Assembly (NCBI GenBank): GCA_015163855.1
Contig: JAAOIK010000010.1
Span: 1-64,000, forward strand
Direction of reading: 5' to 3'
DNA from: Pseudobdellovibrionaceae bacterium
GTDB lineage: Bacteria > Bdellovibrionota > Bdellovibrionia > Bdellovibrionales > UBA1609
Length of the DNA: 64,000 nucleotides
Each line of letters opens with the position of its first letter. Positions within the stretch are counted from its first letter, which is position 1. Shown in pieces: positions 15,175 through 61,722 of this stretch. The position numbers and the translations under genes are program-made. The notes beneath the pieces are model-generated. The model was not told where the DNA came from. It made no database searches and worked only from the letters and a program-made list of their open reading frames with translations.

Positions 15175-15280
15175 AGTGGTCGGGTCCCATACAATAGGGA
15201 GTTTGTGAATCCCCCAGGTTCGAAAGAAAGCAAGGGTAGTAAAAATTCTATGTGCTATGGGTAGCTCGATCGCTTATTTT
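15175..15280 (+). ncRNA. ffs: Signal recognition particle RNA (4.5S type)
   Basis: The conserved apical domain is visible: GTGAA, then CAGGTTCGAAAGAAAGCA (15216-15233), matching the SRP helix 8 pattern CAGGTCCGGAAGGAAGCA, with a GNRA-type loop. The long stem closes well: AGTGGTCGGG (15175-15184) pairs with CTCGATCGCTT (15265-15275) using three wobbles, and CCCATA (15186-15191) pairs with TATGGG (15256-15261). The RNA is about 100 nt, the short 4.5S form without an Alu domain, and ends at a T-rich run. It lies directly upstream of dnaX, its usual neighbour in many bacteria. It binds Ffh for co-translational targeting. Confidence 0.88.
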
Positions 15281-50184: not shown

Positions 50185-50552
50185 AGCCTTGGTGATAGCA
50201 AATTTTTAAAAAAAAGGCACGAGAATTTAGATAAAATTATTTTCTGCTTTTTTTGGACCCTACGGCAGGGCTAAAGACCGCTTTTGTTGAGTGGCTTATT
50301 TTTGTTTCAATGTGAAACAAAACAGGGCTTTAGTTTAAGGTTCTCTGTTTTTTTTCCGATTGTATTGTTAGGATTAATAACCTTCTGTGGCGTAATTTTA
50401 AAGCCTATAATATTAATTCAGGGGACTGTCCCTGGTGGTGGTGTGTTATGCTTAGCTATGTCTAAGAAACCTAAAACTATCATATGGTCGCCCACTTAAA
50501 GCAAAGGCTTTAAGAAAACCACAGAAGGTATTTTTTATTCTTAGGAGTTGCT
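50185..50552. other. Intergenic region without a supported gene
   Basis: 368 bp. It holds CCCT-ACGGC-AGGG (a small hairpin near 50260), the REP-like motif at 50419-50435 and AGGAG (near 50543) as the Shine-Dalgarno sequence of the next gene. A 71-codon open frame at 50284-50499, starting with TTG, has no independent support. A 13-codon ATG frame (50458-50499) follows the REP-like motif. Confidence 0.6.
50419..50435. repeat. REP-like palindrome CAGGGGACTGTCCCTGG
   Basis: Near-perfect palindrome (CAGGGGAC / GTCCCTG) in intergenic DNA. Related to 12388 and 42138. May be a fragment of a REP-like element. Confidence 0.5.
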
Positions 50553-55361: not shown

Positions 55362-58199
55362 ATGATTGAAGTTATTAAGGCGAAACAAAATAATTTAAAA
55401 AATATAAGTATTAAAATTAAAAAAAATACTTTTACGGTTATTTGCGGTCCCTCTGGTTCGGGAAAATCGTCTTTAGCTTTTGACACTTTATATGCAGAGG
55501 GGCAACGATTATACATTGATAGCTTACCCAACTATACTAAACAGTTTTTTAAAAAAGCGCTTAAGCCAAAAGTAGAAAATATTCTTAACATTCCTCCCAC
55601 CATTGCCTTAGAACAAAAAAATACTGTGCAAAATAGTAGAAGTAGCGTAGCCAGCCTTAGTGGAGTTAGCGCTAATTTACAATCGTTATTTGCTCGGCTA
55701 GGAACAGCTTACTGCCCTACCCACAAAGAAGCTTTAACCGCTTACTCTGCAGATTTAGCCTGTTCGTTTGTTATTAACCACTTAGATAAAAACATGGGGG
55801 TTTATGTACTAATTCCCCTGCTAGAGGAAGTAAAAAATATTGCTCAGCTAAAGTTGGCCTTAACCACCGACGCCCTTACCCGCCTATGCCAATTAAGCAA
55901 AGATAAAAAGCAAATAGTGTCTTCTTTTAAAGTAGAGCAATTAACCAAAAAACAATCAAAAAATTTATACATTGTAATGGATCGCGTGTCGCTAAACGAA
56001 GATCCTAAACAACTTAAATCTCGGCTGCGTGATTCTATTCAAAGTGCTTATCATTATTTTATTAAATACAATCCTTCTTCTATATTTTCTCAATGCTTAA
56101 TATTTAATAATAACAGCGAAAAAAAGGGCTCTAAAAAATCTGCATTCAAGGCCCTTAAACTAACGGAGAACTTAACTTGTTCGCAATGCGATTATCAAAT
56201 GTCGCAAATACAAACGCATTTTTTTAACCCGCAAAGTGCTATTGGAGCTTGCCCTTCTTGCTCTGGGTTTGGACACACTTTAGAAATTGATGAAAAAAAA
56301 ATTATACCCAACTCTCAGCTAAGCATTTACGAAGGGGCTATTGCTCCACTAAATATGCCTAGTGCTGTAAAAGATTTTAGAAAACTAAAAAAGTTTTGTG
56401 AAGAAGAAAATATCGACCTCCACACTAACTGGAAAGACTTAAAAGTTTTTGAAAGAAAACTAATTTGGGATGGCAGTAAAAAATTTTTTGGAATCAAGGG
56501 CTTGTTTAAATACTTAGAAACTAAAAAATACAAAATGCATGTTCGTATTTTTTTATCTCGATATAAAAGCCCTTGTTTATGTAATACTTGCCACGGAGGC
56601 GCCTTAAAAACCGACTATCTTAATATTTTTATTCAAAAACATTCGATATCTGATATTTTAAATCTTCGCGTAGAAGAAGCTTTGCAATTTATTACTCAAT
56701 TGCAAAAAAAACAAAACTTATTAAAAGCAACCGATGCACAGCAAGGTGCGGTGGTTATTAAAAAATTAAAAAATGATTTAACTTATTTAAACAATTTGGG
56801 CTTATCTTATTTACATCTAAATCGACTTACCAAAACCCTTTCTGGAGGAGAGTTTCAGCGCTTAAATTTAGCAAAACAAATTTCTACTCAACTATCAGAC
56901 AGTTTATATATTTTAGATGAACCCACAATAGGCTTGCACCCTGCCGATACCGATAAAATTATCAACGCCTTAAAAAAAATAAGAGAACAAGGCAATACCG
57001 TTGTTGTGGTAGAACACGACCCCGAGGTAATTTCTAATAGCTCGCACATAATAGAAATGGGGCCAAAATCGGGTATTCATGGTGGGGAGGTTATTTTTTC
57101 GGGAAATACAAAAGATTTTTTAAACTCCTCTAGCCCCACAGCAAAAGCCTTAGTTCACGCCCCTGCCCTGCACGCCAAACCTCGCCACTTAAAAAAAGTA
57201 AAAAAAATAAAACTGCTAGGTTGCCATGGACATAATTTAAAAAATATTAATTTAGAAATACCTTTAAATCGTTTTACTTGTGTAACGGGAGTTAGTGGCT
57301 CTGGAAAATCTTCGCTAATCACACAAACTTTTCTTCCCGCCCTTGAAGCTAAGTTAAAACAAGATTTTAAAATTAGCCTACCTCACAAAGAACTTCTTAA
57401 TTACGAAAACATACAGTCGGTTTATTTCATTAATCAAAAGTCTGTGTCTGGCACCCAAAGAAGTAATTGTTTAAGTTACTTAAAAATATATGACACTATT
57501 AGAAAGCTGCTAGCTAGTACCAAAAAGGCTCAGTTATTAAAATTAAGTGCTTCGCATTTTAGTTTAAATGTAAATGCAGGACGCTGTGAAACTTGCGAAG
57601 GCTTAGGCTTTATTACTGTAGACATGCTATTTATGGATGAGTTAAAAATTACCTGCGAAGACTGTAAGGGCAAAAAATTTAAACCAGAGGTCTTAAGCGT
57701 TAAATTTCAAGGCCACAATATATTAGATATACTAAATATGAGCGTAGCCGAGGCGTTAAAACTTTTTTCTGCTTACCCTAAAGTTACCAAAGCGTTAAGA
57801 TTATTAGAAACCGTGGGTTTGGATTATATTTCTTTAGGGCAAAACTCTAAAAATTTAAGCGGAGGAGAAAATCAACGCTTAAAAATTGCAAAAGAATTAC
57901 AGTCTAGCCTTGGCGCCAATAACTGTTATATATTAGATGAACCTAGTACGGGCTTACATTTTTATGAAATTAGTTTATTAATAAAAGTAATACAGAAATT
58001 AGTAGATGCTGGAAATACAGTGATTGTAATTGAGCATAATTTAGAGATTATTAAAAATGCAGACTATGTGGTCGACATAGGCCCTAATGCAGGAGAAAAA
58101 GGTGGAGAACTAATATTTCAAAATACTGTTAATAATTTACTAAAAGAAAAAAATAACTTAACCGCTAAACATTTAAAAAAATATATAAATAACCAATGA
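55362..58199 (+). CDS. uvrA: UvrA-family excinuclease ATPase, divergent
   Basis: 945 aa from the ATG at 55362. Two ABC ATPase halves. First: NLKNISI..., Walker A CGPSGSGKSSLAFDTLYAEGQ, signature LSGGEFQRLNLAKQ, Walker B LYILDEPTIGLHPAD. Second: GVSGSGKSSLITQTFL, LSGGENQRLKIAKEL, LDEPSTGLHFYEI. Zinc modules: CSQC...CPSC (about 275-305) and CETC...CEDC in the second half. Divergent points: P in GPSGSGKSS, and no RTPRSNPATYTG segment before the second domain. This could be the main repair protein or a UvrA-like paralogue. The stop overlaps the ABC exporter start (ATGA at 58196-58199). Confidence 0.82.
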   Translation: MIEVIKAKQNNLKNISIKIKKNTFTVICGPSGSGKSSLAFDTLYAEGQRLYIDSLPNYTKQFFKKALKPKVENILNIPPTIALEQKNTVQNSRSSVASLSGVSANLQSLFARLGTAYCPTHKEALTAYSADLACSFVINHLDKNMGVYVLIPLLEEVKNIAQLKLALTTDALTRLCQLSKDKKQIVSSFKVEQLTKKQSKNLYIVMDRVSLNEDPKQLKSRLRDSIQSAYHYFIKYNPSSIFSQCLIFNNNSEKKGSKKSAFKALKLTENLTCSQCDYQMSQIQTHFFNPQSAIGACPSCSGFGHTLEIDEKKIIPNSQLSIYEGAIAPLNMPSAVKDFRKLKKFCEEENIDLHTNWKDLKVFERKLIWDGSKKFFGIKGLFKYLETKKYKMHVRIFLSRYKSPCLCNTCHGGALKTDYLNIFIQKHSISDILNLRVEEALQFITQLQKKQNLLKATDAQQGAVVIKKLKNDLTYLNNLGLSYLHLNRLTKTLSGGEFQRLNLAKQISTQLSDSLYILDEPTIGLHPADTDKIINALKKIREQGNTVVVVEHDPEVISNSSHIIEMGPKSGIHGGEVIFSGNTKDFLNSSSPTAKALVHAPALHAKPRHLKKVKKIKLLGCHGHNLKNINLEIPLNRFTCVTGVSGSGKSSLITQTFLPALEAKLKQDFKISLPHKELLNYENIQSVYFINQKSVSGTQRSNCLSYLKIYDTIRKLLASTKKAQLLKLSASHFSLNVNAGRCETCEGLGFITVDMLFMDELKITCEDCKGKKFKPEVLSVKFQGHNILDILNMSVAEALKLFSAYPKVTKALRLLETVGLDYISLGQNSKNLSGGENQRLKIAKELQSSLGANNCYILDEPSTGLHFYEISLLIKVIQKLVDAGNTVIVIEHNLEIIKNADYVVDIGPNAGEKGGELIFQNTVNNLLKEKNNLTAKHLKKYINNQ

Positions 58200-59959
58200 A
58201 ATACACTATACAATTTATAAAAAAAGAACTTCTGCAATTTAAACTAATTTTTATTTTTGCACTGCTTTTGGGTGTTATTTCGGGGGTAGCAAAATCTGCC
58301 TCTCCGTATATTATTAACCAGCTAATGAACTCTGTTTGGACTACAAACAATTACAGCCTAAACTACTCTATTATCATGTGCTTGTTGTTTTCTCTTACCT
58401 GGGTTATTTCGGCAGTTGCTCGTTTTTTTAACACTTTTATTATTGCCAAATTAACAGAAACCCTTATGGCTAAATTAAAGCAAAAGATATTTAATGCTTG
58501 CGTAAACTTAAACCCCAGTCTTTTTTTACAAAAATTTCCTAAAGGCGCAAGTTCTATCCTTAGTCAGTCTTTAGGTGATTTACAAATTATCTCTGCTGGA
58601 ATAAACAATTTATCCACTATTTTTAGGGAGCCTTTTTTATTATTATTTTCTGCCATCTATATTATATATATAGACTGGAAGCTGCTAGCCTTACTGGCTG
58701 TTGTGTTTCCTTTAATTTCTTTTTTAAACAAAAAATTTATCTATTTATTAAAAAGCCAAAATCATAGCAATTTAGAATTACAAGAAGATGTAACACAAAA
58801 CCTAAAAGAAGGCCTTGAGGGCCTAAGAACTATTCACAGCTTTGATTTACAAGAAGAGCTAACAAACAATTTTAAAACTAAAGTAGTTTCTTTTTTAAAT
58901 ATGCAAAAAAGAATTTTTAAAAAAGAACTTGCCATCTCTCCATTGTCAGAAATTTTTATGTCCCTAAGCATGAGCATAATTCTTTTGTATGTCGGACACC
59001 AAATTATGCAAAAACACCTAAGTATTGCCGACTTTACTTCTTTTTTATTTGCCGCCACTTTACTGCAAGCCTCCTTTAAACAGTTACAAACCGCTATGTT
59101 AAGGCTTCAAAAAGTAGAGGTGGCCTTAGAGCGACTAGCAACTTTGTTTGAAAAAACTTCTAATAACGAACAGCTAGCTAATAAAAAAACAAAACCACTA
59201 AAGCCTTGGTCGAGCATAAAAATCAATAACTTGTCCTACACCTATCCCAATAGCAAAAACCCTGCTTTAAAAAATATTAACTTTGAGTTGAAAAAAAATA
59301 CAAGCCTTGCCATTGTTGGCGAAAGTGGTTCTGGCAAATCGACTTTGGTTAAACTAATTCAGGGGTTTTTACCTCCCCAACAAGGAAGTATTTATTTTGG
59401 CGAACAAAATATTGCCGAAGTTTCTTCCAAAGAACTATTGTCTAATATTAGTTTGGTAGACCAAAATATTTTTTTATTTTCCGCAAGCATTAAAGAAAAT
59501 ATTCTTTATGGAAACATACAAAAAAAACACGACGCCAACTTAGAAGAAGATATTATTTCTGCCGCAAAGCTGGCTGATGCGCATCAGTTTATTACAGAAA
59601 AACCCAAAGCTTATAATAGTTTTTTAAATGTAGAGGGTAATGAACTTTCTGGAGGGCAAAGACAAAGGTTAAATATTGCTCGTGCTTTATTTAAAAATGC
59701 TCCCTTACTTATTTTAGACGAAGCCAGCAGCGCCTTAGATGCCAAAAGTGCCGAAGCTATACAGTCCACAATAGATAAACTAATACCTCACACCACAAGC
59801 CTAATTATTACTCATAAATTGCACTCTTTAAAAACAGCAAACCATATTATTGTATTAGACAAAGGTTCTGTTGCCGAACAAGGCAGCCATGCGGAGTTAA
59901 TGCAAAAAAAATCCCTATACTTTCGTTTAGCAGTAAAACAAGGCATTAGCTTAGACTAG
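58196..59959 (+). CDS. ABC exporter, MsbA/lipid A-type (half-transporter)
   Basis: 587 aa. Six-helix membrane domain (about residues 10-310) with the PLSEIFMSLSMSIILLYVGHQ motif, then the ATPase: Walker A GESGSGKSTL (about 373-382), Q-loop (VDQNIFLFSA), signature NELSGGQRQRLNIARALF, Walker B LLILDEASSALD and H-loop ITHKL. Homodimeric exporter, like MsbA or multidrug types. It overlaps uvrA by 4 bp (ATGA), so translation is coupled. The transcription unit ends in the giant hairpin at 59964. Confidence 0.88.
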   Translation: MKYTIQFIKKELLQFKLIFIFALLLGVISGVAKSASPYIINQLMNSVWTTNNYSLNYSIIMCLLFSLTWVISAVARFFNTFIIAKLTETLMAKLKQKIFNACVNLNPSLFLQKFPKGASSILSQSLGDLQIISAGINNLSTIFREPFLLLFSAIYIIYIDWKLLALLAVVFPLISFLNKKFIYLLKSQNHSNLELQEDVTQNLKEGLEGLRTIHSFDLQEELTNNFKTKVVSFLNMQKRIFKKELAISPLSEIFMSLSMSIILLYVGHQIMQKHLSIADFTSFLFAATLLQASFKQLQTAMLRLQKVEVALERLATLFEKTSNNEQLANKKTKPLKPWSSIKINNLSYTYPNSKNPALKNINFELKKNTSLAIVGESGSGKSTLVKLIQGFLPPQQGSIYFGEQNIAEVSSKELLSNISLVDQNIFLFSASIKENILYGNIQKKHDANLEEDIISAAKLADAHQFITEKPKAYNSFLNVEGNELSGGQRQRLNIARALFKNAPLLILDEASSALDAKSAEAIQSTIDKLIPHTTSLIITHKLHSLKTANHIIVLDKGSVAEQGSHAELMQKKSLYFRLAVKQGISLD

Positions 59960-59963
59960 GTTC

Positions 59964-60101
59964 TTTTGTTCAGGGTGGGGAGAGCGCCAAAAGGTTAGAC
60001 TCTTTTGCGACTCAGCCCGAAGGGATGCCTGAGCAAAAGAGCCTAACCTTTTGGCCCTCTCCCCACCCTGAACAAAAAAGCCTAGCCTTTTGGCGCTCTC
60101 C
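59964..60101. repeat. Giant hairpin with about 49-nt arms plus a third direct copy
   Basis: Arms 59964-60014 and 60029-60077 are complementary with two mismatches and a 2-nt bulge. The loop contains the small hairpin CCC-GAA-GGG. A third copy of a 28-nt part occurs at 60074-60101, in direct orientation with the second arm. The arms are GC-richer than their surroundings. It begins 4 bp after the ABC exporter stop. In one frame the two direct copies read PEQKSLTFWPSP / PEQKSLAFWRSP, but this is a repeat artefact. Confidence 0.92.
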
Positions 60102-60183: not shown

Positions 60184-61722
60184 ATGAATTGGACAAATGT
60201 CGACAGCACTCATGTAATCGCTAAACTAAAGGGTTTATTAAAGTCTTGGTGGAACATAGAGGTTTTATTGGTAGATAACAACGGGGTTCTGCATGATACA
60301 AAAGTAGACTCAATGCTGGGTCATTTAAAACCGATTTTAACTCACAAAACTTTTTTAAAAAAAATAGAGTCAGTTAATTTAATTGCGATAAAAGAATTAA
60401 AGCATCTTAATAAAGATTATATATATAAAGAAGCTCATCATATGGGGCTAGAAAGTTTACACATTCCTATTAAATTTAATAAAGAGGTGTTAGGCAGTGT
60501 TGTTGCTGTTGGCTTTAAACATCAAGCTTCTGAGGTGTCTAATACTCTTCAATACCTATCTTTAAATGATAAGCAATTAAGCCAATTGTCTGCGGGGCTT
60601 CGCAACATTGCTGATTTAGAAAATAATCACCTTGTGGATATATTAAATTCGATTGCAGAAGAAATTCAATTAGTTTATGCAGAATTATCTAGCAAAGAAA
60701 AAATCTTATCAGAAATTACAAAAGAAGATTCTGTTTTTCGATATGGAAATATGATTGGTTCTTCAAAAAAAATGAAAGAACTTTATGAAGTTTTAGAAAA
60801 AATTAAATCGGCAAACAGTAGTATTTTAATTCAAGGAGAAAACGGAACTGGTAAAGAGCTGATTGCCCATTGCATTCATCAAAGTTCACAAAGAAAAAAC
60901 AAAGCCTTTGTAATACAAAACTGCTCTGCCTTAAATGATAATTTATTAGAAAGTGAACTTTTTGGGCATGTAAAAGGTAGTTTTACGGGTGCTCATGCAG
61001 ATAAAAAAGGTTTGTTTGAAGTCGCCAACAATGGCACGTTTTTTCTAGACGAAATTGGTGATACCAGCCCTAGTATGCAAGTAAAATTACTGCGCGTTTT
61101 GCAAGATGGCACTTTCCTTCCTGTGGGAGGAACTGAAACCAGAACCACCAATGTAAGAATTATTGCTGCCACCAATAAAAATTTAGAAAAAATGGTTGAA
61201 GAAGGAACTTTTAGAGAAGACCTTTATTACCGGTTAAATGTAATTAGTTTGCGCGCTCCTGCGCTTAGAGACCGTTCTTCTGATATCCCTATTTTAGTAA
61301 CTTATTTTTTAAATCAGCAAATGAAAAAAAGTAAAAAAAATATTTTAATGTCTAAAGTAGCCATAGATAAGTTGCAACATTACTCGTGGCCAGGAAATGT
61401 GCGTGAGTTACAAAATGAAATTGAAAGAGCTGTGGTTTTATGTTCAAGCATAGGTAAAATTAATGAAAGCGATTTGTCTTTAAAAATTACCCATCACACC
61501 AATGACACGATTTTAGAAAATAAAAACATTAACGCCTTATCTCATTTTTCAGGAAAACTAAAAGATGCCTTAGCTAGTTTGGAAAAACAAATTCTTCAAG
61601 AGGGCTTGCGAAAAACGGGCGGAAACAAATCTAGACTTTCTAAAGAATTAGGAATTAGCCGAGCTAACCTAATTATGAAAGTAGAAAAGTATGGATTAGA
61701 AGTTAAGAAAAAAGCGGTTTAA
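60184..61722 (+). CDS. Sigma-54-dependent transcriptional activator
   Basis: 512 aa from the ATG at 60184, preceded by AAGGGA; the longer frame would run through the hairpin repeat. The N-terminal ~190 residues are a sensor region (WWNIEVLLVDNNGVLHD) reminiscent of PocR/GAF-type ligand domains, without a receiver Asp. AAA+ domain: Walker A GENGTGKE (218-225), GSFTGA loop (265-270, for GAFTGA, contacting sigma-54), Walker B FFLDEIGD, and arginine-finger region FREDLYYRLNVI. The Fis-type HTH is at the C-terminus (LRKTGGNKSRLSKELGISRANLI). Target promoters not identified. Confidence 0.9.
   Translation: MNWTNVDSTHVIAKLKGLLKSWWNIEVLLVDNNGVLHDTKVDSMLGHLKPILTHKTFLKKIESVNLIAIKELKHLNKDYIYKEAHHMGLESLHIPIKFNKEVLGSVVAVGFKHQASEVSNTLQYLSLNDKQLSQLSAGLRNIADLENNHLVDILNSIAEEIQLVYAELSSKEKILSEITKEDSVFRYGNMIGSSKKMKELYEVLEKIKSANSSILIQGENGTGKELIAHCIHQSSQRKNKAFVIQNCSALNDNLLESELFGHVKGSFTGAHADKKGLFEVANNGTFFLDEIGDTSPSMQVKLLRVLQDGTFLPVGGTETRTTNVRIIAATNKNLEKMVEEGTFREDLYYRLNVISLRAPALRDRSSDIPILVTYFLNQQMKKSKKNILMSKVAIDKLQHYSWPGNVRELQNEIERAVVLCSSIGKINESDLSLKITHHTNDTILENKNINALSHFSGKLKDALASLEKQILQEGLRKTGGNKSRLSKELGISRANLIMKVEKYGLEVKKKAV

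Follow-up and report, generated by a model that had tools for sequence, protein, structure and literature searches.

A putative dispersed palindromic element with a shared hairpin tip and local arms in a Pseudobdellovibrionaceae genome

Introduction

The palindromic elements of Rickettsia (RPEs) and Wolbachia are about 100-150 bp long and occur between genes as well as in-frame inside protein genes, and what mobilises them is unknown (PMC2229807). RPEs are grouped into families of repeats that are 105-146 bp long and carry inverted repeats at their ends, and an excerpt of PMC6649704 describes these repeats as losing identity over time. The same excerpt reports that Nematomorpha mitochondrial genes contain near-perfect long inverted repeats in coding sequence, which are apparently maintained. 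REP and REPIN sequences, on the other hand, are short imperfect hairpins that are intergenic and often stand in opposed pairs (PMC3733652). It is an open question by what route RPEs and similar bacterial palindromes spread, and why some long palindromes remain perfect. Template switching between the two arms of an inverted repeat has been described to leave two marks, homogenised arms and inverted spacers (PMC8604942), and it can both form and preserve hairpins (PMC8794818). Among the open-licence papers searched, none described such elements in the present bacterial group, which is weak evidence of novelty.

In this study we analyse a long hairpin in a stretch of 64,000 nucleotides (the window), the genome that carries it (the host, G000, 95.5% complete) and the genome of the one further species of the genus that was sampled (the sister, G001). 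Both genomes are fragmented drafts, and host and sister are ~80% identical. The hairpin belongs to a family that resembles RPEs in that small palindromes are found both between genes and in-frame in genes (here menD and valS). It shares with REP and REPIN sequences the short imperfect hairpins, intergenic and often in opposed pairs, and with the Nematomorpha repeats, as the excerpt presents them, the near-perfect long inverted repeats in coding sequence that are apparently maintained. There are differences from each of these systems as well. Whereas RPE families share repeats of 105-146 bp, the copies described here have a ~28-nt tip in common and their arms are local; and whereas RPE repeats lose identity according to the excerpt, the arms here stay matched. 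The copy number is low compared with REP sequences. The palindromes of Nematomorpha are mitochondrial and have much longer arms, and the excerpt mentions no conserved core.

Results

The window hairpin and its neighbourhood

The hairpin lies between an ABC exporter gene and a sigma-54-dependent activator gene, both as stated in the preliminary description of this DNA. The following features were located:

58196-59959, + strand: ABC exporter gene, upstream of the hairpin
59953-60008, + strand: left arm, which overlaps the 3' end of the exporter gene (ORF end 59959) by its outer 7 nt
60007-60034, + strand: conserved core, the hairpin tip GCGACTCAGCCCGAAGGGATGCCTGAGC, common to other copies
60016-60024, + strand: inner CCC-GAA-GGG tip hairpin
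60033-60088, + strand: right arm, 91% complementary to the left arm
60067-60101, + strand: second unit of a direct repeat (the 'third copy'), the first unit being 60028-60062
60184-61722, + strand: sigma-54-dependent activator gene, downstream (Pfam Sigma54_activat), start by the RBS-like AAAGGGAAAT

The mechanical ORF start of the activator (60025) falls inside the hairpin, and its likely start is 60184. An inverted-repeat search gave the two 56-nt arms with a gap of 24 nt between them; their inner ~49 nt have few mismatches, in agreement with the preliminary description. When 59953-60101 was folded, we obtained -55.1 kcal/mol for single-stranded DNA and -95.0 kcal/mol for RNA, each with a z of -11.4 and each equalled by 0 of 200 shuffles. 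No second inverted repeat of similar length and perfection was found in the 64-kb window. The very long near-perfect hairpin that had been noted before is thus borne out, and the same holds for its inner CCC-GAA-GGG hairpin and for its differing base composition, with a G+C content of 53.5% vs 35% in the window and 31-35% in the flanks. In other copies the inner tip stem covaries or has a longer loop. A third copy of the arm had been noted too: it comprises 29 nt (60073-60101) with 90% complementarity to positions 59979-60007 of the left arm, and it belongs to a direct repeat whose units are spaced by 39 nt and 89% identical. We read it as part of the right arm that was duplicated locally.

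In the sister genome the same exporter and activator are separated by a stretch of ~1.3 kb without the window hairpin. A small gene with flanking direct repeats CAATCTTCATTTGCTATTTAAAGC... (G001:C21, L048 230-330 and 1220-1370) replaces the hairpin at this place.

A small family in two congeners

When the hairpin was used as a query against the host genome, six further places were found, each of them matching the tip alone. The copies have a core in common, an imperfect hairpin of 28 nt at the tip with the sequence GCGACTCANCCCRAAGGGNTGCCNRAGC or a variant of it. There are 7 occurrences of this core in the host and, with up to three mismatches, 8 in the sister; it is absent from the reversed control and from all 57 further genomes of the family and order that were searched. 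A search for the exact core pattern in the GTDB genome collection gave a single match, in the Bdellovibrionales MAG contig JAAOIH010000002.1. A covariance model (R2) found about 13-15 copies in the host and about 16 in the sister, approximate numbers that were taken from filtered model searches. In two further models, R1 and R3, one or two core-adjacent pairs are shifted by a single column; the intended structure underlies R2 and the pair counts. The R2 copies include other tip loops, and three of them have a tip that is ~32 nt longer. Such a longer, C-rich tip stands between CAGCCC and GGGATG in the host copies L080, L088 and L082, the last of which (G000:C10:65669-65756) lies 1.7 kb past the end of the window.

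Many copies per genome were seen in the two congeners only, with R2 in 141 genomes of the order and with R3 in 369 genomes of the phylum, where no further multi-copy genome was found. One plausible copy was noted in a genome of another genus (G063), where an unrelated stem of ~40 bp has TTCAGCCCGAAGGGATG as its tip. Other candidates were rejected: a match in G234 is a plain hairpin, and the matches L096 and L097 look like chance. Phage and plasmid records gave no match to the element and viral contigs no core; two viral matches to the bare inner hairpin lack the matched arms. Judged from sequence, the host genome contains about 14 copies of a small, dispersed, non-coding and genus-restricted element, with at most one apparently convincing relative elsewhere in the phylum. 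The hairpin singled out in the preliminary description is therefore neither unique nor without relatives in another genome, and an assembly artefact is a poor account of it (see Discussion).

A shared tip on private arms

Outside the core the stem measures 27-51 nt in intact copies, and two copies are decayed. The proximal 12 nt of the stem are loosely alike, with 47% identity between copies. The distal arms (positions 15-30) are 33.5% identical between copies vs a chance expectation of 32%, and within each copy they are 95% complementary. Across 17 copies, 15 of 22 pairs show changes on both sides; the cells with such both-sided changes number 81 vs 21.7 in shuffles, and slid controls collapse. 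What all sites have in common, as read from the aligned copies, is a ~28-nt imperfect tip and about 10 bp of proximal stem, and the distal arms read as site-specific and self-complementary. Two pairs of copies lie close together in the sister (176 nt apart in L043, 163 nt in L047); the members of each pair carry identical unusual tips in opposite orientation on unrelated arms, as would be expected if the core, and not the arms, was copied.

Insertion sites and the origin of the arms

At the junction of glnQ and a permease gene the host carries a hairpin (L038); in the sister the two genes overlap there and no hairpin is present. The permease coding sequence contributes its final ~23 nt to one arm of L038, and the permease C-terminus reads YLETYLQRESLS in the host vs YLEKYLKKENL in the sister. 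The other arm is an inverted copy of the permease end and lies within spacer DNA that is absent from the sister. By this comparison of the two junctions, one arm at glnQ/permease duplicates, in inverted orientation, host gene sequence that lies beside the insertion. Two in-frame hairpins are present in valS of the sister and none in valS of the host; the sequence coding for SFESDKL forms arms of both hairpins, and their outer edges run into conserved host sequence, which supports an origin of the arms from host sequence at this site. The arm of the asd copy spans about the last ten codons of asd, and a host origin is possible there. At the window copy the arm takes in no more than 7 nt of the exporter gene. 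A clean host origin of an arm is limited to one site, glnQ/permease.

In both species menD contains an in-frame copy. Most copy positions are not common to host and sister. This comparison of occupied and empty sites covers two species, and gain vs loss is unpolarised by an outgroup. Insertion into pre-existing palindromes was considered and rejected: at four empty sites any stems stayed within what shuffled sequence gives. Two of these sites, groES and recQ, have short stems that could be scars of loss. The search for flanking target duplications that had been suggested for this hairpin gave no clean one, and what looks like a duplication is in inverted orientation.

Matching of the arms in orthologous copies

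In menD, host and sister differ at 5 pairs that have changed on both sides and at 0 that have changed on one side, with 36 pairs unchanged. In the host copy 6 of the 47 pairs no longer match, so that the matching is not absolute. Orthologous copies at rpsB and recA show a pattern like that of menD, judged by eye, and in the orthologues L044 and L056 the core is flipped within orthologous arms. Both-sided arm changes (menD) and spacer inversion (L044/L056) between orthologues, both to be expected from template switching, were thus found. The likeness to published template-switch inverted repeats consists in both-sided changes, homogenisation and spacer inversion (PMC8604942, PMC8794818). Those cases, however, concern existing inverted repeats without a common sequence, whereas here a conserved core tips every repeat. 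As there is no obvious reason for selecting pairing in a coding gene, we favour a mutational explanation.

Discussion

We consider it somewhat probable that the hairpins are copies of a dispersed palindromic element whose local arms originated as inverted target duplications and are kept matched by template switching. In such a process the core would arrive at a new site as single-stranded DNA or via a replication template switch. The folded 3' side of the core might then prime synthesis back along the target strand, by which the flank would be copied into a perfect second arm, an inverted target duplication. Later arm-to-arm template switching during replication would keep the arms matched and might occasionally flip the core and leave part of an arm duplicated, as in the 'third copy' of the window hairpin. 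The element seems to be tolerated between genes and, in-frame, within genes. A more far-reaching version, in which a core of ~28-50 nt disperses itself by foldback-primed target copying and every insertion makes its own matched arms from host DNA, is put forward tentatively. If it were true, this would be a palindromic element that is defined by its tip alone and that has an inverted instead of a direct target duplication. The sharing of only the tip, together with local arms and with an arm that at one site is taken from the adjacent gene, separates dispersal from palindrome formation, and both become testable.

In its behaviour the element appears closest to RPEs, yet we do not file it as one, because the arm sequence is not common to the copies and the likeness is one of behaviour. 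RPE hosts belong to a different phylum. An RPE-like family should also conserve the whole element and its inverted repeats between copies, and this is not seen in the distal arms, whose identity is close to chance.

An alternative, which we regard as unlikely, is that the copies encode a functional RNA with a conserved tip, a protein-binding or processing site, on long stems, acting as a stabiliser, processing signal or regulator; the compensated changes would then reflect selection on RNA. The strong covariation, the conserved internal loop and tip, and the positions kept in both species upstream of rpsB, after recA and between tRNA genes are in line with such a role, as is a T-run that follows the recA copy. 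However, the core is co-directional with, opposed to or convergent with neighbouring genes, and copies stand in-frame inside menD and valS; mixed orientation and copies within genes together argue against one common RNA role. Most positions differ between the two species, and the both-sided changes without one-sided intermediates in menD lie inside a coding gene. No Rfam family was found at threshold, and searches with gathering and permissive thresholds gave only chance matches to miRNA-type hairpins. If template switching does keep the arms matched, perfect stem covariation in bacterial DNA need not signal a selected RNA structure.

Besides a processed RNA, the preliminary description had suggested a mobile palindromic element of MITE or REP type. 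Of its options the mobile palindromic element has the best support, from the dispersed copies, the species-specific occupancy and the in-frame copies. An ordinary MITE or REP it does not appear to be, since the distal arms are private to each copy and the host has no match to a Y1/RAYT transposase. We therefore think it rather improbable that the arms are diverged ancestral terminal inverted repeats of a conventional element mobilised by a transposase in trans. It is true that the copies are short, non-coding, dispersed, both intergenic and intragenic and found in both orientations, that the proximal stem is partly conserved and that some G001 copies have 64-72 nt in common. But arms at chance identity with a conserved tip are the reverse of what terminal inverted repeats would show, and at glnQ/permease host coding sequence forms one arm. 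Conserved terminal ends were not found, nor was a consistent direct duplication in empty-site alignments between these two species of ~80% identity, and no GTAG or CGTC tag is conserved at the palindrome foot in the family alignments. A RAYT-linked REP was rejected as well: G000 gave no RAYT (Y1_Tnp) match, and the palindromes on either side of the single RAYT of the sister are of another kind, GGGTCAGGTACACCCC.

A terminator of unusual strength for the ABC exporter had been suggested too and is highly doubtful: a strong GC-rich stem does follow directly after the exporter stop codon, but at the window locus the stem is not followed by a T-run, a scan for terminator-like sites gave none, and the same core is found within genes and upstream of genes. 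The least credible account, an assembly or amplification artefact (an inverted chimera) in a metagenome-assembled genome, is very unlikely, for although both genomes are fragmented drafts with some copies near contig ends, orthologous hairpins with diverged yet compensated arms stand in a second assembly (menD, rpsB and recA), every tip carries the conserved core and the copies inside genes keep the frame.

Several other observations were made along the way. In the sister, a ~360-nt hairpin-bearing segment near a contig end is duplicated with 92% identity (G001:C20, L041 4004-4369 and 5923-6264), and the second copy has lost most of its arm complementarity. Genomes from other families of the order, G037 (L094 and L098) and G085 (L095), contain perfect hairpins that share the tip TTTTTGCGACTCA / GCGACTCAG with the family and have different outer arms (AAGGTNC...GNACCTTTT). 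The palindrome GAGGGTCAGGTACACCCC, which flanks the single RAYT/Y1 transposase gene of the sister (G001:C35, L101 1303-1878), also flanks an apparent BrnT/BrnA-type toxin-antitoxin pair downstream of groEL (L039 6343-6398 and 7106-7161). Finally, the window itself contains Rfam matches to 6S RNA (50376-50534) and to the bacterial small SRP RNA (15178-15274).
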